Below the pieces are notes generated by a model, which searched no databases, was not told the DNA's origin, and worked only from the letters and a program-made list of their open reading frames with translations. From positions 1 through 58,370 of IMG/VR virus record IMGVR_UViG_3300042691_048764: a DNA stretch of 58,370 nt. One strand, given 5' to 3'. Source of the stretch: a virus. This document shows, one piece after another, positions 3,817-16,260 of the stretch (its first letter is position 1; each line of letters opens with the position of its first letter). The position numbers and the translations under genes were made by a program.

Positions 3817-4011
3817 ATGAAAAAAGCATTGACATTGATTAGCTTTGCAGCTACATTGGGTATCATCTCTTGTAACACTGGTTCAACATCTACCTCAGGT
3901 TCTGAAGGATGCGACAGTACTTGCGTAAGTGCAGACTCAGTTAAGTGTGTAGTTGATAGCACAAAGACTGACAGCACAGTCGTTGTAGCGGACAGCACAG
4001 CTAAGAACTAA
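3817..4011 (+). CDS. small phage lipoprotein
   Basis: 64 aa. The N-terminus is a classic lipoprotein signal: basic MKK, a hydrophobic core, and lipobox GIIS|C with Cys19 as the lipidated residue. The mature part is only about 46 residues, rich in Ser, Thr and Asp, with three more Cys and a repeated DST/DS pattern (VVDSTKTDSTVVVADST). It would be anchored in the host envelope. Small phage lipoproteins in other systems block receptors and exclude superinfecting phage; that role is a guess here. The gene is a single unit between a late-type motif and a strong terminator. Confidence 0.75.
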   Translation: MKKALTLISFAATLGIISCNTGSTSTSGSEGCDSTCVSADSVKCVVDSTKTDSTVVVADSTAKN

Positions 4012-4030
4012 TCTCAAAACAAAGAGGTTT

Positions 4031-4058
4031 AAAAAGCTTAGATTCTTCTAAGCTTTTT
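4031..4058 (+). terminator. intrinsic terminator
   Basis: Stem AAAAAGCTTAGA / TCTAAGCTTTTT with a 4-nt loop and a long T run ending near 4062. It closes the lipoprotein gene. Confidence 0.85.
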
Positions 4059-4064
4059 TTTTGC

Positions 4065-4085
4065 CCGAAATATTATATAAGTTTA
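4065..4085 (+). promoter_or_regulatory. early-type promoter (CCGAAA + TAnnTTTR)
   Basis: CCGAAA (4065-4070) is followed after 7 bp by TAAGTTTA (4078-4085), one mismatch from the Bacteroidota -7 element TAnnTTTG. The shared TGCCCGAAAT block also occurs before clpC at 9591-9600. It would drive the interrupted tRNA and the cREC gene. Confidence 0.4.
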
Positions 4086-4101
4086 TCAATAGAACAAAAA
4101 A

Positions 4102-4218
4102 GCAGGAGTGGTGAAAATGTCCCCAGTTAACGGGGGCCATAAGTTAGACACAGCCGGTTTCCGGAACCGGCCGGCACAGGGTAACCGAGTCTTGGAGGTG
4201 CGAGGCCTTCCTCCTGCA
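4102..4218 (+). tRNA. tRNA-like gene with a hairpin inserted in the D-loop
   Basis: A perfect 7-bp acceptor stem (4102-4108 with 4211-4217) is followed by T8 and a 3-bp D-stem GTG/CAC. An anticodon-type arm lies at 4153-4171, then a variable region of about 20 nt, and a T-arm GGAGG-TGCGAGG-CCTTC with discriminator A4218. It resembles type II (Leu-like) tRNAs. The D-loop is split: AAAATG and GTTAGA would join into a normal G18-G19 loop, but 23 nt (4120-4142) intervene and fold as CCCC/GGGG. The anticodon arm has a 19-nt span instead of 17. The best 7-nt loop is TTCCGGA with anticodon CCG (Arg), which does not suit a type II body. The T-loop is non-canonical. It may be a decayed, processed or regulatory tRNA-like RNA. 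No 3' CCA is encoded. Confidence 0.6.
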
Positions 4219-4233
4219 CAATTAATTTAAAGA

Positions 4234-4677
4234 ATGAACAGGATCTCAATATATCTTGATGACGTGAGAATACCGATCGAGCACCCCGAAGGTCAGACGT
4301 GGACCGTAGTTAGAAACTATGAAGACTTCGTCGAGATTGTGAGCTCAACAGGTCTAGATAGAATCGACCACATTTCTTTCGATCACGATTTAGATCGCTC
4401 CGCAACAGAGCACTTCATGCTGGAGACTCTAATAACTTATTCAATAGACTACTCTAAAATAAAAGAGAAAACAGGATTAGACGCCGCTAAGTGGTTAATC
4501 CTACACTCGATAGAAACGGGGAAGGACCTACCAAAGTGTTGGGTTCATTCTGCTAATCCAATAGGAACAGGACATATAATGGGTCACATTAACCTATACC
4601 TTAAAAAATGCAAGCTCCCCGAAAATTGCATAAGAGCTAAATGGAATCACACTAGATCCCAATCTACAAGTTTATGA
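4234..4677 (+). CDS. predicted cyclic-phosphate-processing receiver (cREC) domain protein
   Basis: 147 aa. YLDDVR (residues 7-12), SFDHDLD (48-54) and a late WVHSANPIGTGHI (103-115) are the pattern I associate with the inactive-receiver family named cyclic-phosphate processing receiver, predicted from comparative genomics to act in RNA repair on 2',3'-cyclic phosphate ends. The biochemical role of that family is a published prediction, recalled from memory. The gene starts 15 bp after the interrupted tRNA-like gene at 4102-4218 and overlaps the next ORF by ATGA. The position at the head of a tRNA island containing interrupted tRNAs makes a link to tRNA end processing attractive, but that is inference. 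Confidence 0.65.
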   Translation: MNRISIYLDDVRIPIEHPEGQTWTVVRNYEDFVEIVSSTGLDRIDHISFDHDLDRSATEHFMLETLITYSIDYSKIKEKTGLDAAKWLILHSIETGKDLPKCWVHSANPIGTGHIMGHINLYLKKCKLPENCIRAKWNHTRSQSTSL

Positions 4678-4862
4678 TATACGACCTTTATTATCCAGTC
4701 TACGACATTGGGGTTAATTCGGAGACAGGTGAAATTAAATTACCCATTTGCAAATGTAAAGAAAATGACATGTGCATCTTTTTAAGAAATTGGATCGAGG
4801 ATGGTAAGCCCACGCATCTTAAGCCGGAGGAACTTGAGATCTTAAAATCTAAACAATCTTAA
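4674..4862 (+). CDS. small hypothetical protein
   Basis: 62 aa, translationally coupled to the cREC gene through an ATGA overlap. It contains CKCKEND and a further Cys (residues about 26-34) in an otherwise mixed-charge protein. LRNWIEDGKPTHLKPEELEIL looks helical. I do not recognise the family. Coupling suggests that it works with, or is dosed with, the cREC protein. Confidence 0.6.
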   Translation: MIYDLYYPVYDIGVNSETGEIKLPICKCKENDMCIFLRNWIEDGKPTHLKPEELEILKSKQS

Positions 4863-4878
4863 CTGATATTTTTTTATT

Positions 4879-4900
4879 CCGAAAGGAAACATTACATTTG
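4879..4900 (+). promoter_or_regulatory. early-type promoter (CCGAAA + TAnnTTTG)
   Basis: CCGAAA at 4879-4884 is followed after 8 bp by TACATTTG (4893-4900), an exact match to TAnnTTTG. It lies 48 bp upstream of tRNA-Glu and would start the main tRNA transcript. Confidence 0.5.
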
Positions 4901-4947
4901 CTCTGTCAGTACAAAAACAAAGGTCTTTGACATATAGGGTAAAAAAT

Positions 4948-5022
4948 GCAGCGTTGGTCAAGGGGTTAAGACACCTCCCTTTCACGGAGGAATCACGGGT
5001 TCGAATCCCGTACGTTGTACCA
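4948..5022 (+). tRNA. tRNA-Glu(TTC)
   Basis: Cloverleaf with acceptor GCAGCGT/ACGTTGT (two G-U pairs). The anticodon stem CCTCC/GGAGG has loop CTTTCAC, giving anticodon TTC. The T-arm is ACGGG-TTCGAAT-CCCGT and the discriminator is A5019. CCA is encoded (5020-5022), unlike in the other tRNAs here. Confidence 0.93.
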
Positions 5023-5038
5023 CAATAAAACGATAAAC

Positions 5039-5362
5039 ATGACAAGTCTAGTTATTCTACAGCTTATCGTCTCGTTATCTGTCTTATGGGTTTGGCTCAT
5101 GAGACGTGAAGCGGTGATATCTGAATTCGAAAGGTTTGGATTATCCAAACAAACACTTACCACAGTTGGTGCAGCAAAGATACTTCTTTCTCTAATGATG
5201 ATGATTTCCATCTGGTTCCCAGTAATCTCAATTCCTTCCACTCTGGGTATGACGTATATGATGATTGCAGCTCAGTACTATCACATGCGTTTTGACTCTC
5301 CTCTAGATAAAAGATTACCTTCTTTGGTTCTCTTGCTAATGTGTATTTTAATTCTAGTGTAA
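5039..5362 (+). CDS. DoxX-like small membrane protein
   Basis: 107 aa. An upstream in-frame ATG at 5015 lies inside tRNA-Glu, so the ATG at 5039 is chosen. Four hydrophobic segments, at about residues 3-20, 43-62, 65-80 and 92-107, with GAAKILLSLMMMISIWFP and AAQYYHMRFDSPLDKRLPSLVLLL between them, fit the DoxX_2-like layout of four-helix inner-membrane proteins. In bacteria these are poorly understood and sometimes linked to redox or sulfur metabolism. It is wedged between tRNA-Glu and tRNA-Asp with almost no spacer, so it may be co-transcribed with the tRNAs. The role in the phage is unknown. Confidence 0.65.
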   Translation: MTSLVILQLIVSLSVLWVWLMRREAVISEFERFGLSKQTLTTVGAAKILLSLMMMISIWFPVISIPSTLGMTYMMIAAQYYHMRFDSPLDKRLPSLVLLLMCILILV

Positions 5363-5368
5363 TAAAAA

Positions 5369-5442
5369 GGATCGGTAGTTCAGTTGGTTAGAATGCTGCC
5401 CTGTCACGGCAGAGGTCGCGGGTTCGAGTCCCGTCCGGTCCG
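5369..5442 (+). tRNA. tRNA-Asp(GTC)
   Basis: Acceptor GGATCGG/CCGGTCC, anticodon stem CTGCC/GGCAG with loop CTGTCAC (anticodon GTC), T-loop TTCGAGT, discriminator G5442. No CCA is encoded. Confidence 0.93.
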
Positions 5443-5446
5443 CATA

Positions 5447-5546
5447 GGTGAGCGCGAAGACGAAAGGCAACACAGCGTGATTGTGCGCACAGTACGCTTA
5501 AGCACGAGTAGAAACAAGGGAGGATTAGCTACCCTCCCGCCTCACC
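5447..5546 (+). ncRNA. structured RNA candidate, tRNA-like outline
   Basis: The ends pair as GGTGAG/CTCACC and continue as GCG/CGC after one bulged C, giving a closing stem of 9 bp. A 6-bp stem GGGAGG/CCTCCC (5518-5523, 5533-5538) sits in the T-arm position, and GCGT/ACGC (5475-5478, 5494-5497) in the anticodon position. There is no TTCGA loop and no clear D-arm. It is GC-richer than the flanking genes. It could be a degenerate tRNA or a stable RNA like T4 species 1 and 2, which lie in the T4 tRNA cluster. Confidence 0.4.
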
Positions 5547-5555
5547 AAAAATAAA

Positions 5556-5689
5556 CCAGTCCGCAGGCCACTGGATCGAAACACAGAGAACGCCTCTCGG
5601 AATAGAGTTCACTCTTGCACAGGCGCACCAGTCTCTTCTCATCGTTTGGAGACAAAGTTGGCAACTCTTACATGTGGTTCAAAAGTTGC
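5556..5689 (+). other. non-coding stretch with four consecutive hairpins
   Basis: Four helices follow one another: CCAGT/ACTGG (5556-5574), CGCCT/AGGCG (5591-5625), GTCTC/GAGAC (5631-5653) and GCAACT/AGTTGC (5661-5689). No plus-strand ORF or standard tRNA was found. The density of hairpins suggests that the RNA itself matters, but I cannot name a family. Confidence 0.35.
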
Positions 5690-5694
5690 AAAAT

Positions 5695-5865
5695 AGTCAG
5701 GTGGCGAAAGGAGGGTGAAGTCCATCCTCGAGGTAGACGCAAATTGAGATAACAGAGCAGTGTGTCTGTCTTGGAGTGGACACATAATGCTACGCTGTGT
5801 TACACAGATTAACCAAGTGACGAGTGTATGCTCAATTTTTACAGGTTCGAATCCTGTCCTGGCTA
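5695..5865 (+). tRNA. tRNA-like gene with D-loop and anticodon-arm insertions
   Basis: 171 nt. Acceptor AGTCAGG (5695-5701) pairs fully with CCTGGCT (5858-5864) with one G-U pair. The T-arm ACAGG-TTCGAAT-CCTGT (5841-5857) is canonical and the discriminator is A5865. The D-stem is GCG (5704-5706) with CGC (5738-5740), and TGGCGAAAG plus GTAGACGC would make a normal Leu-like D-arm. About 22 nt (5711-5732, GAGG...CCTC hairpin) separate G18 from G19. The anticodon stem AAATTGAG/CTCAATTT (5741-5748, 5831-5838) encloses 82 nt with its own hairpins (TGTGTC/GACACA, CTGTG/CACAG). The anticodon cannot be assigned without knowing what is removed. Confidence 0.6.
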
Positions 5866-5991
5866 CTGAATCAGTTTGCCCGTGGGAACGGATACGTATC
5901 GGGGTTTTTGAACCCTGAGTATCTTCTGTAATCAAAATCCAATCACTGCTCACTGGTGTTTGGGCTAAATGTGAGAAAAAAACGGGAACAC
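5866..5991 (+). other. non-coding spacer with palindrome and hairpin
   Basis: This spacer holds the perfect palindrome GATACGTATC (5891-5900) and hairpin GGGTT/AACCC (5902-5906, 5911-5915). No gene was seen. The hexamer GATACG recurs in the structured segment at 6276-6281. Confidence 0.4.
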
Positions 5992-6062
5992 AGTGGCATG
6001 GTGTAACGGCAGCACTACAGATTTTGATTCTGTCTGTCCTGGTTCGAATCCAGGTGTCACGT
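5992..6062 (+). tRNA. tRNA-Gln(TTG)
   Basis: Anticodon stem ACAGA/TCTGT with loop TTTTGAT gives anticodon TTG. The D-stem is GTG/CAC, and the T-arm CCTGG-TTCGAAT-CCAGG is canonical. The acceptor pairs at positions 2-7, with an A-G mismatch at 1-72. A weak first pair is typical of tRNA-Gln, which supports the call. The expected discriminator G is not obvious (T6062). Confidence 0.85.
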
Positions 6063-6104
6063 CTAAATTTCTATTACCTAAAAATAGGTATATAGTCGGA
6101 AATT

Positions 6105-6178
6105 GGACCCTTAGCTCAGTTGGTTAGAGCATCTGACTCATAATCAGAGGGTCGCTGGTTCGAGCCCAGCAGGGTCCA
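6105..6178 (+). tRNA. tRNA with CAT anticodon (elongator Met or Ile2)
   Basis: Acceptor GGACCCT/AGGGTCC, anticodon stem TCTGA/TCAGA with loop CTCATAA, T-arm GCTGG/CCAGC, discriminator A6178. The body, especially the GGxCCCT acceptor and the GGTCGCTGG segment, looks closer to the Ile2 (AUA-reading, lysidine-modified) type than to E. coli elongator Met. Sequence alone does not settle this. Initiator features are absent. Confidence 0.9.
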
Positions 6179-6189
6179 CATCTTAAAAA

Positions 6190-6270
6190 GCGGAAGTAGC
6201 TCATTTGGTAGAGCGATAGCCTTCCAAGCTATAGGTGGCCGGTTCGAGCCCGGTCTTCCGGTCTTCCGCT
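6190..6270 (+). tRNA. tRNA-Gly(TCC) with duplicated 3' acceptor strand
   Basis: Acceptor 5' strand GCGGAAG, D-stem GCTC/GAGC, anticodon stem ATAGC/GCTAT with loop CTTCCAA (anticodon TCC), and T-arm GCCGG-TTCGAGC-CCGGT. The 3' acceptor strand occurs twice in tandem. CTTCCGG plus T (6255-6262) directly follows the T-stem but leaves G1 opposite G72. CTTCCGC plus T (6263-6270) pairs perfectly. Using the first copy, the tRNA ends at 6262. Confidence 0.88.
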
Positions 6271-6379
6271 CACCCGATACGTGAGTGAAAGCAAGCAGCG
6301 TATCTCTAGTTAGGGTCTTTCAGCCAGTGAACTAGGGTCCGAACGTCATTGTTCGGTGAGAGTACCAGGAAACCTCTCA
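6271..6379 (+). ncRNA. structured RNA candidate between tRNA-Gly and tRNA-Arg
   Basis: Perfect stems follow one another: GATACG/CGTATC (6276-6281, 6299-6304), CTAGTT/AACTAG (6306-6311, 6330-6335), CCGAAC/GTTCGG (6339-6344, 6351-6356) and TGAGAG/CTCTCA (6357-6362, 6374-6379). An alternative closing stem CTCACC/GGTGAG (6269-6274, 6355-6360) also exists. There is no ORF, and the stretch is GC-richer than the coding regions. The family was not recognised. Confidence 0.45.
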
Positions 6380-6383
6380 TTTT

Positions 6384-6482
6384 GGTCTCATAGTTCAATG
6401 GATAGAACGACTGCCTTCTCGGTCTATATTGAAAAGTATTACCGAGAAGCAGTGGATCCAAGTTCGATTCTTGGTGAGACTA
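6384..6482 (+). tRNA. tRNA-Arg with 27-nt insert in the anticodon loop
   Basis: Acceptor GGTCTCA/TGAGACT, D-arm GTTC/GAAC, anticodon stem ACTGC/GCAGT (6410-6414, 6449-6453), T-arm CCAAG-TTCGATT-CTTGG, discriminator A6482. The anticodon loop is 34 nt instead of 7. Removing 6420-6446 leaves CTTCTAA, the standard Arg(TCT) loop for AGA codons. Removing 6419-6445 leaves CTTCGAA, Arg(TCG). The insert plus neighbours forms a 7-bp perfect hairpin TCTCGGT/ACCGAGA. At 27 nt it is far too short for a group I or II intron. Confidence 0.85.
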
Positions 6483-6501
6483 CAAAAAAATAAAATAAAC
6501 C

Positions 6502-6576
6502 GCTCTCGTAGCCCAATTGGCAGGAGGCAATAGACTTAGGATCTATCCAGTGTCGGTTCGAATCCGACCGAGAGTA
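6502..6576 (+). tRNA. tRNA with TAG anticodon (Leu, short variable loop)
   Basis: Acceptor GCTCTCG/CGAGAGT, anticodon stem ATAGA/TCTAT with loop CTTAGGA (anticodon TAG, reading CUA), T-arm GTCGG-TTCGAAT-CCGAC, discriminator A6576. TAG and G37 fit Leu, but the variable loop is only 5 nt (CCAGT), whereas cellular bacterial tRNA-Leu has a long variable arm. Confidence 0.85.
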
Positions 6577-6594
6577 CAAAAATAAAAAAATCTT

Positions 6595-6837
6595 ATGAAC
6601 CAAAACGAACCAATTCAAATGAACCTTCAGTTGGAGCAAACAACTCCAATAGTTTGTGAAGAGTGCGGGAATGACGCATTCACCAGGGTGATGTTTCTTA
6701 GAAGAGCTAGTAAATTTCTAACAGGAGCTCCACAGGACACAGTTACACCAATTCCAACTTTTGCGTGTTCAAAGTGCCACCATATTAATTCGGAGTTCCA
6801 GCTCAAACTTGACGAGGTTGAGAGCGAGGAAGGATAA
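6595..6837 (+). CDS. small zinc-ribbon protein
   Basis: 80 aa. Two CxxC knuckles, CEEC (residues 21-24) and CSKC (58-61), about 33 residues apart, form a probable zinc ribbon. The middle (about 30-48) is basic. The family was not recognised beyond the fold. It follows the last tRNA by 18 bp and lies 16 bp before the RNase H-like gene, so the two may be one operon. Confidence 0.7.
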   Translation: MNQNEPIQMNLQLEQTTPIVCEECGNDAFTRVMFLRRASKFLTGAPQDTVTPIPTFACSKCHHINSEFQLKLDEVESEEG

Positions 6838-8491: not shown

Positions 8492-8509
8492 TTAAAATAC
8501 TAAAAGCGA

Positions 8510-9538
8510 ATGCCACAAAGAATACTGCTAAGAAGAGACACCTCAATAAACTGGGAATACAATAATCCAGTTTTAATGCTAGGTGAACCTGGAGTTGAAA
8601 CCGATACCGGAAAGCTCAAAATCGGAGACGGGCAGTCTCCCTGGACAGATTTGTCTTATTTGGAAGGACCTGTAGGGGCTACCGGAGCAACTGGATCTGA
8701 TGGGATTTCTGTAACTGGACCAACAGGGAGTGCAGGACCCGCTGGTGCTACTGGTCCAACTGGATCCGGCTCTATAGGAGCTACCGGGCCAACAGGAAGT
8801 TCTGGACCCACTGGTGCTACTGGTCCAACTGGATCCGGCTCTATAGGAGCTACCGGGCCAACAGGAAGTTCTGGACCCACTGGTGCTACTGGAGAAAGAG
8901 GATCAACCGGAGCATCTGGGGGTTCGACCCTACCCGTTATAAACACGGCCGTTAATTTATCAGGGTCGAATCGACCCTTGCAGGGAGCAGGAATTTATAG
9001 GGTAACAGCATTTGGGAATTCTTTTGAATTTAATAAAACAGGTATAGCAAATGGCAGTAGGGTTATATTAATAAATAGCAACGTGTCTTATGTAGACACC
9101 GTGCCAGTTATTGGTGACGGGGTTTCTGTTTTGTATCAAGGAACCCAAGTGCCAGTAACACAAATACCTTCAGGAATGGCCTTTGATTTTATCTATACTA
9201 CAAATGAGGATACTTGGTATTGCTTAAATCCCCTACCTCAAATTTGTCCAGCAAAGATAGACTTAGATGTCTACAATGCTAATTATCTTATAAACACCCC
9301 AGGTTTATTTGCTTTTGAAAATAATAGTAATTCTTTTGAAATAATTTTGCCAGATCCCACTAAATTTAGGGGATTGCAGATAGTTATCTGGAATCAATAT
9401 TCTAGTTCTATTTCTTATGGATCGTCTTATGTCCCATTAAATCCCGACATTTCTAATAAAGGCTCCATCTTGGGTAGAAGCATCGACACACTTGTCTCTA
9501 TGGATGGTAACTGGACAGTTGTAAATAGTTATTCGTAA
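8510..9538 (+). CDS. collagen-like fibre protein with Mtd-like N-terminal domain
   Basis: 342 aa. Residues 1-50 repeat the Mtd-type module ([27 protein letters not shown]). Residues about 55-140 are Gly-X-Y collagen-like repeats ([13 protein letters not shown]), expected to form a trimeric stalk. The C-terminal 200 residues form a beta-rich, Asn/Ser-rich globular part, presumably the binding tip. Collagen-like stalks are widespread in phage fibres. The stalk DNA contains two exact 69-bp repeats, so length variation by recombination is likely. It is co-oriented with the shorter paralogue 18 bp upstream. Confidence 0.78.
8744..8881 (+). repeat. two identical 69-bp tandem repeats in the collagen-like stalk
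   Basis: Copies at 8744-8812 and 8813-8881 are identical base for base. A third copy starts at 8882 but diverges after about 13 bases. Each unit codes for 23 residues of Gly-X-Y type. Confidence 0.93.
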
Positions 9539-14031: not shown

Positions 14032-14883
14032 ATGGTCAGCTTTTGTCAAATAGGTTACTTAGGAAGGTTGGGGAATCAGATGTTTCAATTCGCATCTACA
14101 TTAGGGATAGCTCGGAAGTTGGGATTTGAAGCAAGGTTTCCTTCAGAAAATTTTACCACTTACGAAAAAGCAGGTCCCTTTGATTTTTCCACAAACTCTA
14201 ACTCTGAAATTAAGTGTGATCTTTTTGAGTGTTTTGAAATTTCTGAAGAATATAGAATACCAATCAGTGAAATAAGAAGGGATGCAGTTTACCGTGAGAT
14301 TGAATTTGGGTATAACAAAGAGACTGAGGGAATTCGGGATAACACGATCCTTTCAGGGTACTTCCAATCTGAAAAGTATTTCTCTCACTGCAGAGATCTA
14401 ATACTTTCCCAATTTTCTTTCCGGGAGGAGTATAAAGGTCCTGCTACCGAATATGTGGAGACTATAAAGAAATCAAACCCGGATAAGAAGTTAATTTCCA
14501 TGCATATCAGAAGAGGTGATTATGTATTGTTTCCTGATCATCATCCGGTCTGCTCGAGAGAATACTACACGTCATCCGAAGCCATAATTTCTAAAGATCC
14601 CCACGAATCCATCTTTATAGTTTTCTCAGATGACACCGATTGGTGTAAAACTGAATTTTCTGGATCTAGATATATTATTTGTGATCTTGGGAATCCTTAT
14701 GTAGAACTTTGCGCTATGACACTATGTGACCATCATATTATAGCCAATAGCTCGTTCAGTTGGTGGGGAGCTTGGTTAAATCGCAAAAAAGATAAAACTG
14801 TGATTGCTCCATCAAGATGGTTTGGATCAATGATCAATAAAGATACTTCTGATGTTTATTGTAAAAATTGGATAAAAAATTAA
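14032..14883 (+). CDS. GT11 alpha-1,2-fucosyltransferase
   Basis: 283 aa. GRLGNQMFQFASTLGIARKLG (residues about 10-30), SGYFQSEKYF, SMHIRRGDYV (the HxRRGDY nucleotide-binding motif), CSREYYTSSEAI, FIVFSDD and IIANSSFSWWGAWLN are all hallmarks of GT11. The length is normal. The enzyme moves L-fucose from GDP-fucose to a galactose acceptor in the host cytoplasm or inner-membrane face. GDP-fucose would come from Fcl and Gmd at the other end of the cluster. It is followed by a GT2 gene after 3 bp. Confidence 0.92.
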   Translation: MVSFCQIGYLGRLGNQMFQFASTLGIARKLGFEARFPSENFTTYEKAGPFDFSTNSNSEIKCDLFECFEISEEYRIPISEIRRDAVYREIEFGYNKETEGIRDNTILSGYFQSEKYFSHCRDLILSQFSFREEYKGPATEYVETIKKSNPDKKLISMHIRRGDYVLFPDHHPVCSREYYTSSEAIISKDPHESIFIVFSDDTDWCKTEFSGSRYIICDLGNPYVELCAMTLCDHHIIANSSFSWWGAWLNRKKDKTVIAPSRWFGSMINKDTSDVYCKNWIKN

Positions 14884-14886
14884 TAA

Positions 14887-15630
14887 ATGAGTACTTTTTT
14901 TAGTTTAACTATCAATACATTTAACCACTCAAATTGGATTGAAAAATGTCTAAGAAGCTGCGTAGAGCAAGATTACGACAATTTCGAGGTTATTGTTCTA
15001 GATGACATATCAAATGATGGAACCTATGAAATCTGTAAGCAAGTCGAATCGGAATATCCTGATAGACTTAGGGTTTTACAAAATAAGGAAAAGATCTATT
15101 CTCAGGTTAAAAATATACTTACATTAACTCAAGAGGCAAAAACAGGAGCTATTGTTATTTCTGTAGATGGAGATGATTGGTTAAAAGACAATCAGGTTCT
15201 TAAAGTTTTAGATACAGTATATAGAGGTGGTGATGTTTGGGTAACTTATGGCAGATACGAGGAATACCCGTACGGGGGAGTACCTAGATACTATCAATAC
15301 CCTGATAACGTTATTGCAGATAACGGTTTCAGGGGTCACGAGTGGTTGGCTTCACACCTCAAAACTTATAAGAGAGATTTATTTTTAATGATAAACGAAG
15401 AAGATCTTAAACTTCATAATGGTGAATGGCTAGATGTAACAGGTGATCAAGCTTTTATGCTACCCATGTTAGAGATGGCGGGGGAAAGGAGCCAGTTCGT
15501 AGACAAAATTCTCTACGTTTACAATGTTGCTAATCCAACGAGGGACGGAGCCACTAAGGCGGATCGACAAGAAGAAGTGGCAAGATATATTAGGGGAAAA
15601 CAAAAATATAATAGGATAGAATCTATATAA
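14887..15630 (+). CDS. GT2 family glycosyltransferase
   Basis: 247 aa. The GT-A fold start (FFSLTINTFNHSNWIEKCLRSCVEQDYDNFEVIVLDDISNDGT) and a later VDGDDW (the DxD-type metal site, about residue 97) are typical of GT2. The C-terminal part contains GDQAFMLPMLE, a usual acceptor-side motif. Donor and acceptor cannot be inferred. It abuts the next gene with no spacer (TAA then ATG), so the genes are read from one message. Confidence 0.85.
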   Translation: MSTFFSLTINTFNHSNWIEKCLRSCVEQDYDNFEVIVLDDISNDGTYEICKQVESEYPDRLRVLQNKEKIYSQVKNILTLTQEAKTGAIVISVDGDDWLKDNQVLKVLDTVYRGGDVWVTYGRYEEYPYGGVPRYYQYPDNVIADNGFRGHEWLASHLKTYKRDLFLMINEEDLKLHNGEWLDVTGDQAFMLPMLEMAGERSQFVDKILYVYNVANPTRDGATKADRQEEVARYIRGKQKYNRIESI

Positions 15631-16260
15631 ATGGAAGATAAATTTTTTATTGGGATTTTATCCCACGCTAAGAGTGAAAAAAGAAGCTCACAGAAAAAGA
15701 TCTGGGACAATCTCAACAGTCCAAATCTGATATACTACTACTTTATAGGGGATCCTAATATTGATAGCAATTATATTATTGACGAAGAGAACAAAGTCGT
15801 TACACTTAAAGTTCCGGATAATTACGAGTCTCTAGCTTTAAAAACAAAGGGTATAGTTGAATTTTATCTTGAAAACTACTCTCAAACAACAAAGGGTATG
15901 TTTAAAACCGACGATGACATCTCGGTAGACCCAGAATTAATATACGGAATGCTAAAGGAAAATTCAGAAGCTCCATATTTTGGACTCGAGGTTGATATAG
16001 TTAATCCTTACAACTCGACCTGGCATTGGGGTAAATGCGAATCTGCATATTGGAATTCTAAGCATGTCACAGTTTCACAATGTAAATATTGCGCAGGTGG
16101 TGGATATTATATTAAAAGTGACATTGCAATCTCTATGAAAGATAAGATAGACTTGTATAATGATTTTATATTTGAGGATGTTGCTACCGGAAACGTTTTA
16201 AATTCTTTAGGAATTTATCCAACTAATATAGACGTAAAAAACAATGGATTAAATTGGTAA
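15631..16260 (+). CDS. GT31-like beta-1,3-galactosyltransferase
   Basis: 209 aa. FIGILSHAKSEKR, YYYFIGDP, VPDNYESLALKTKGIVEF, FKTDDDISVD (the DDD metal site, about residue 91), CKYCAGGGYYIKSD and FEDVATGNVL line up with the eukaryote-like and bacterial GT31 family, which adds galactose or GlcNAc in beta-1,3 linkage. The protein is short for the family but has the core motifs. Next gene begins 2 bp later. Confidence 0.8.
   Translation: MEDKFFIGILSHAKSEKRSSQKKIWDNLNSPNLIYYYFIGDPNIDSNYIIDEENKVVTLKVPDNYESLALKTKGIVEFYLENYSQTTKGMFKTDDDISVDPELIYGMLKENSEAPYFGLEVDIVNPYNSTWHWGKCESAYWNSKHVTVSQCKYCAGGGYYIKSDIAISMKDKIDLYNDFIFEDVATGNVLNSLGIYPTNIDVKNNGLNW

Follow-up and report, generated by a model that had tools for sequence, protein, structure and literature searches.

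The window analysed here is the whole stretch of 58,370 nt that makes up positions 1–58,370 of IMG/VR virus record IMGVR_UViG_3300042691_048764. The record is that of a tailed phage, encoding a tail sheath, a terminase, a UvsX-like recombinase and a DnaB-like helicase. The 171-nt element under study lies within a tRNA array, with the following surroundings:

4102–4218 (plus strand): second tRNA-framed element, with acceptor GCAGGAG/CTCCTGC, D-stem GTG/CAC plus a D-loop hairpin, and T-loop TGCGAGG (sequence; fold z = −1.61)
4893–4900 (plus strand): TACATTTG, candidate Bacteroidota −7 promoter box upstream of the tRNA array, the sole TAnnTTTG match in 3841–6700
4948–6577 (plus strand): tRNA array holding the element, with Glu, Asp, Gln, Met, Gly, Arg (with an insert) and Leu (ARAGORN, Rfam)

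TAnnTTTG is the −7 promoter motif of Bacteroidota. A cREC_REC gene (4234–4677; predicted cyclic-phosphate processing), with a relative in locus L017, adjoins the array, and an RNase H-like gene neighbouring the element had no homologues found. The tRNA-Arg (TCT) at 6384–6482 carries a 27-nt insert in its anticodon loop that is absent from the matching tRNA-Arg of L132 (6461–6533); because removal of the insert would leave a normal loop, this gene looks intron-like, unlike the element at 5695. The spacer at 5555–5633 has a conserved homologue in L200 (994–1072, 87.5% over 80 nt) with a covarying stem (CCAGT/ACTGG versus CCCA/TGGG), making it another small RNA candidate. For two further inter-tRNA spacers, 5447–5548 and 6268–6363, cloverleaf-like structures closed by GGTGAG/CTCACC and CTCACC/GGTGAG can be drawn by eye; the minimum-energy fold of the latter differs from such a drawing.

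The element itself is composed as follows:

5695–5865 (plus strand): whole tRNA-framed element, from the acceptor to position 73 (sequence, fold, family comparison)
5695–5701 (plus strand): acceptor 5′ strand AGTCAGG, partner 5858–5864; the T at position −1 is 5694
5704–5706 (plus strand): D-stem 5′ strand GCG, partner 5738–5740; pair type covaries (n = 348 elements)
5711–5729 (plus strand): D-loop hairpin GAGGGTG-AAGTC-CATCCTC, 19 nt (fold; same site in seven other elements)
5738–5740 (plus strand): D-stem 3′ strand CGC (covariation and fold)
5741–5748 (plus strand): 5′ strand of the cargo closing stem, AAATTGAG, which replaces the anticodon stem (fold; partner 5831–5838)
5749–5830 (plus strand): 82-nt cargo with two predicted hairpins, 5756–5791 and 5792–5827 (fold)
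5831–5838 (plus strand): 3′ strand of the cargo closing stem, CTCAATTT (fold)
5841–5857 (plus strand): T-arm ACAGG-TTCGAAT-CCTGT, near-invariant across 348 elements, a count biased by the search patterns
5858–5864 (plus strand): acceptor 3′ strand CCTGGCT; position 73 is A5865
5866 (plus strand): C at position 74, as after the real tRNAs of these phages

The acceptor strands, 156 nt apart, form six Watson–Crick pairs and one G–U pair; together with the 5-bp T-arm and its TTCRA loop, hallmarks of tRNA found both in the window and across the 348 elements, they bear out in sequence and fold what an earlier note on this DNA had described as a complementary 7-bp acceptor and a canonical T-arm. The 8-bp stem that it placed on the anticodon side (5741–5748/5831–5838), enclosing 82 nt with internal hairpins, was likewise recovered, the predicted hairpins numbering two. 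The D-loop hairpin reported there is also present, but not between G18 and G19 as proposed: alignment with relatives sets it before the conserved GG (5732–5733) of GGTAGACGC. The companion hairpin claimed for the D-loop of the gene at 4102 is predicted by its fold as well. The predicted folding energy of positions 5694–5866 (173 nt) is −54.4 kcal/mol (z = −2.32), a value reached by 5 of 200 dinucleotide shuffles; for the interior of the element by itself z is −1.67, with 12 of 200 shuffles doing as well. Since the cargo at 5749–5830 is a singleton with no homologue in the fetched loci, folding energy is all that backs its internal structure. At 5695–5865, ARAGORN made no call and Rfam at its gathering threshold, tRNA (RF00005) included, gave no match.

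Elements of the same build were found in more than 100 contigs of uncultivated phages. At least 119 IMG/VR contigs contain the 16-mer from the 5′ end of the element (acceptor and first part of the D-arm), and at least 120 contain the family's 3′ 26-mer; the two patterns are independent, and both counts are lower bounds on abundance. Across 2.37 Mb of fetched loci (given here as L numbers) there were 428 3′ anchors, comprising 385 with a 5′ partner within 320 nt, 34 without one and 9 that run off the contig end, and 348 distinct elements were collected. A 22-nt pattern was present in all 30 whole records, which had been picked because each held an element, at 1–14 copies per record and in a single orientation in 28 of the 30, with no hit for the reversed-pattern control; in a set chosen by protein homology (the window and eight relatives) the pattern occurred at up to three mismatches in 3 of 9 records, one of these matches (G002) being a real tRNA-Lys gene. 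Where a real tRNA lay within 3 kb, the nearest was on the same strand in 248 cases and on the opposite strand in none; 149 elements had no tRNA within that distance. Bacterial and archaeal genomes, 84,980 in all, gave only six contigs with the exact 3′ 25-mer, of which four belong to Bacteroidota MAGs; a 74-nt member, used to seek an isolated phage with the family, returned no two-ended match in 50,697 phage records. The nearest isolate is Tenacibaculum phage pT24, which shows only similar 'tRNA-Undet' genes; its deposited tRNA-Sup and two tRNA-Undet genes (L254 1021–1979) have an extended hairpin as anticodon arm.

The acceptor reads exactly AGTCAGG in 186 of 233 distinct elements defined by their D-arm. 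Acceptor and T-arm counts over all 348 elements are biased by the search patterns; because the loci had been fetched with AGTCAGG-containing sequence, we recounted on the 137 elements from which both retrieving patterns are absent, and in this unbiased set 92 were exactly AGTCAGG and 97 lay within one mismatch. The invariance of the frame is thus partly due to how the loci were fetched, and most of it is retained in the bias-free count. A scan that required nothing beyond a T-arm and complementary acceptor strands yielded 677 distinct tRNA-shaped elements (one match on reversed sequence), and 270 of the 327 tRNA-shaped elements that ARAGORN does not call tRNA carry the AGTCAGG acceptor. Real tRNAs in the same loci are far less uniform, with 24 different acceptors for 29 Leu-TAA genes, 43 for 59 Met genes and 19 for 23 Arg-TCT genes.

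A complementary 3-bp D-stem is present in 315 of the 348 elements (none was found in the other 33), most often as GCG/CGC (224), followed by GTG/CAC (13), GCA/TGC (8), GCT/AGC (7) and rarer complementary types; as read from these sequences, the changes are compensatory across the family and indicate selection at the RNA level. The D-loop hairpin recurs at the same site, with other covarying stem sequences, in at least seven elements (L070, L084, L122, L185, L176, L042 and L251), and D-loops of at least 21 nt were counted in 22 of 269 parsed elements, with 65 elements unparsed and about five of the 22 being parsing errors by eye. On the anticodon side, the insert is in every case flanked by the D-stem and the T-stem. 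That the inserts are not products of random decay, as had been argued from the window, is supported; the freely varying insert boundaries that had been named beforehand as contrary evidence were not observed in the family alignment.

The interiors of the elements gave no decoding signal above controls. Without introns, ARAGORN called 72 of 342 elements tRNA, with 51 different anticodons, against 60, 68 and 74 calls when the interiors were shuffled; with intron models it called 205, against 203, 200 and 203, and these calls comprised 72 different anticodons versus 68–74 for shuffled interiors. Hairpins with a 7-nt T33–R37 loop occurred in 9 of 266 cargoes (8–14 after shuffling). Neither an anticodon arm with a 7-nt loop and one consistent anticodon, nor an anticodon arm restored by insert removal, could be distinguished from what ARAGORN reports on the shuffled interiors. 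In the shortest members (71–73 nt) no more than a small hairpin separates the D-stem from the T-stem, and a normal anticodon arm would not fit. Among the phage records, RtcB ligase was found in none of 26 and T4-type RNA ligase 1 in 10 of them. Removable introns in the elements were rejected on the intron calls, and the suggestion that the inserts are spliced out or leave a circular RNA finds no support from these data or from the shortest members. As judged from sequence, the element neither decodes nor represents an intron-containing tRNA. To view it as one tRNA gene interrupted twice by introns is to start from the wrong frame; it is instead one member of a scaffold-plus-cargo family.

The cargoes of this family are structured and highly diverse. 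Interiors fold better than their shuffles (mean z −0.73, SE 0.07; 266 non-redundant interiors of at least 25 nt), and the 336 interiors that were 20 nt or longer comprised 205 without a relative in the set and 131 in small clusters; elements longer than 230 nt (6 of 348) were excluded from the cargo analyses. In a three-member cargo family (L153, L101 and L235) five pairs had changed on both sides, and another with compensatory changes (L067, L216 and L076) combines the same cargo with a D-loop insert in L076 and without one in L067 and L216. A pseudoknotted RNA, TGACACGCACGGC...TACCTCACTGTGCGTAGGTAA (L200 1511–1620), is free-standing in L200, L018, L172, L156, L048 and L030, and the same RNA is framed in L014, L098 and L090, the L090 acceptor being different (GGTTGGG/CCCAACT). 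In its structural model 98% of cells are paired, with a covariation of 0.370 against 0.128 for shuffled alignments (0 of 500); sliding the model brings the value to 0.090 or less. This covariation comes from the variable helix, the pseudoknot helix being invariant and neither supported nor refuted by it. Rfam did not report this RNA in the loci scanned and identified no known RNA family as cargo in seven loci, and complementarity of cargoes to their own locus or to phage tRNAs was the same as for shuffled sequence. Mimicry of a Cas12a handle, sought with one regular expression, was rejected (0 of 342 cargoes).

Comparison of related contigs showed these cargoes being replaced in place. L049 and L113 have tRNA blocks that are 94–99% identical, with differing elements between tRNA-Gln and tRNA-Ser; at one element the two sequences agree from the downstream spacer through the T-arm half, as far as the cargo. 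At a site shared by six contigs (L178, L194, L210, L216, L219 and L224), identity was 0.90 in both the upstream and the downstream flank, 1.00 in the T-arm half and 0.69 in the D-arm half, and the cargoes were unrelated (identity 0.34 versus 0.29 for shuffled sequence), with one pair (L194/L219) having a common cargo. In part, the D-arm half is exchanged there as well. Among 74 different-locus pairs with flank identity above 0.80, which are not independent of one another, cargo similarity was below 0.75 in 68 (random median 0.42, 99th percentile 0.64).

Sequences flanking the elements offer clues to expression and maturation. Of 340 AGTCAGG elements, 334 are followed by C74 and 9 have an encoded CCA; among real tRNAs all 280 have C74 and 21 encode CCA. 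The elements therefore share their 3′ context with the real tRNAs encoded by these phages. Upstream of the elements, a TAnnTTTG box ending 2–8 nt before the 5′ end was counted 14 times (2.1 expected), and none of 276 real tRNAs has one there. In the six-contig group the box ends 4 nt upstream of position 1, so that transcription could begin at the mature 5′ end. A homologue of the CCA-adding enzyme was detected in only 3 of 26 records, and 3′ maturation would therefore mostly rely on the host.

We propose, with a probability of about 0.6, that the family is a tRNA-framed carrier used by phages, in which a tRNA-matured scaffold bears an exchangeable structured RNA cargo, probably for phage–host or phage–phage conflict. 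Within this proposal, comparative sequence analysis establishes the constant tRNA frame, the covarying D-stem, the structured modular interiors and their in-place exchange; we infer tRNA-type maturation, high stability and homologous recombination between the constant ends. The chassis would be the near-constant top half of a tRNA (acceptor and T-arm) together with the D-arm, whose ends host RNase P, 3′-end processing and the CCA enzyme would mature as in a tRNA, giving a stable RNA. A phage-specific structured cargo would stand in for the anticodon arm and sometimes the D-loop, and the constant ends and flanks would permit it to be swapped at one genomic site, presumably by homologous recombination. 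Turnover of this kind typifies molecules engaged in conflict, and the cargoes therefore most likely bind or decoy fast-changing partners, for example rival phages or defence factors of the host; this turnover, together with the T4-type RNA ligase 1 in 10 of 26 records, is why we suggest a role in conflict. In effect the family looks like a natural RNA display frame, with tRNA ends near-unchanged and, where the decoding arm would be, a structured RNA that is another one in almost every phage. More tentatively, it may amount to an RNA arsenal of Bacteroidota phages organised like a variable-region system, one frozen tRNA frame on which many unrelated structured modules are swapped between phages at fixed sites, each directed against a different host defence or competitor.

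The constancy of the frame, far greater than that of real tRNAs, and the missing anticodon would also suit decoy tRNAs, whose top half absorbs defences that modify tRNA ends or bind tRNA and whose interior is filler that abolishes decoding. T4-type RNA ligase 1 is a known counter to anticodon nucleases, and its occurrence in 10 of 26 records points the same way. We nevertheless consider this reading unlikely, because filler needs neither structured interiors with compensatory changes in small cargo families nor a cargo that also exists as a free-standing RNA, and several different cargoes occur per genome. An element acting at the DNA level, its conserved ends serving as sites of recombination or integration through which sequence is shuttled between phages, and its RNA structure inherited from an ancestral tRNA, would account for constant ends and conserved flanks around an exchanged interior, and the window does encode a UvsX-like recombinase; such exchange may be real, yet not the sole role, as the covariation in D-stem and cargo, the tRNA-like 3′ context and the candidate promoters abutting the 5′ end indicate an RNA product, and we rate this explanation as quite improbable.

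Three further explanations appear more improbable still. YrlA and other Y RNAs are tRNA mimics that occur in phages, and TROVE proteins were found in 3 of 26 records, which recalls Y-RNA-like mimics of the YrlA type partnered with a Ro/Rsr protein; this is very hard to reconcile with the absence of any YrlA match on the elements (one sub-threshold match falls over ordinary tRNA genes of L113), with constant ends that are acceptor ends, and with the 23 of 26 phage records that have no TROVE match, where a host copy is possible. Barely credible is the reading as tRNA genes whose D-loop and anticodon arm contain introns or self-splicing inserts that are excised and perhaps circularised: fixed insert sites, the anticodon-loop insert of the neighbouring tRNA-Arg (6384–6482) that its L132 relative lacks, and RNA ligase 1 in 10 of 26 records speak for it, but intron and anticodon calls equal to those on shuffled interiors, shortest members too small for an anticodon arm, and RtcB in 0 of 26 records speak against it. 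We equally disfavour, as hardly conceivable, functionless pseudo-tRNA genes in decay or produced by recombination, for although tRNA arrays recombine and ARAGORN calls (72 of 342) match those on shuffled interiors (60, 68 and 74), the near-constant acceptor and T-arm, the covarying D-stem and the structured interiors are not those of decaying genes, and copies occur in 30 of 30 records.

The tRNA-framed carrier proposed here can be set beside several systems already described. Two stable RNAs of the T4 tRNA cluster, RNAs C and D (species 1 and 2), have a role that is still described as unknown (PMC12685909, PMC9697503, PMC3014915). Like the elements, they are small RNAs encoded next to phage tRNAs, and rnaC ends in a perfect T-arm (CCGGG-TTCGAAT-CCCGG); in our reading of its sequence, however, the acceptor pairing is imperfect and a D-arm was not seen, and the T4 RNAs are two single RNAs with no visible sequence relation to the elements, not a constant-frame family with exchanged cargo. 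The engineered tRNA scaffold (PMC3753655) retains the acceptor, T- and D-arms and carries a foreign structured RNA in place of the anticodon stem-loop; its architecture is the same but man-made, whereas the phage elements are natural and diversified. The Rfam tRNA family (RF00005) shares the acceptor, D- and T-arms, and some elements of our family exceed its 29-bit cut-off, but the elements are without an anticodon arm and 5695–5865 is not reported. YrlA (RF02553) differs in that no Rfam match falls on the elements (seven loci; window at the gathering threshold), TROVE proteins being confined to 3 of 26 records. tmRNA (RF00023) also has tRNA-like ends around a long non-tRNA interior, but the elements are much shorter and have no tmRNA match in the window or in seven loci, the method detecting tmRNA in L014. 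The tRNA-Lys (TTT) of a relative phage, L250, has a nearly identical acceptor (AGCCAGG) and likewise T-arm but is a true tRNA whose anticodon arm is normal; a tRNA-Lys of this type is a possible source of the frame.

Because membership of tRNA, intron-containing tRNA, YrlA and tmRNA fails on the features tested, we regard the family as probably new as a system. It is apparently undescribed: an open-access literature search, which took in PMC7824862, PMC9964418 and PMC2864571, showed no account of such a family. If our proposal is correct, nature has arrived at the laboratory tRNA-scaffold trick, with phages carrying fast-changing structured RNAs on a tRNA frame; the family would then open a route to RNA-based anti-defence factors and their targets, and allow the function of T4 RNAs C and D to be approached by comparison. 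At present, annotation pipelines scatter these genes among 'tRNA', 'tRNA-Undet' and nothing.

Other RNAs were encountered in the same loci. A second tRNA-framed family, with acceptors such as TGTAAGG or TGTAGAG and G at position 73, occurs in L052, L055, L063, L092, L150, L174 and L200; its 7-nt loop is by eye mostly T[TC]GTCT[AC], and an insert of about 80 nt with a GACCAC motif lies on the variable-arm side. L052 also holds, as a separate gene inside the phage tRNA array (8501–8562), a freshwater-1 RNA (RF02979) at 70 bits, just under the 72-bit cut-off. The L014 phage, which has framed elements, carries a GOLLD RNA and a tmRNA gene at 15608–16012 and 14867–15266, and at L251 1959–2033, in the same phage, ARAGORN calls a tRNA with anticodon TTA, corresponding to the stop codon TAA.
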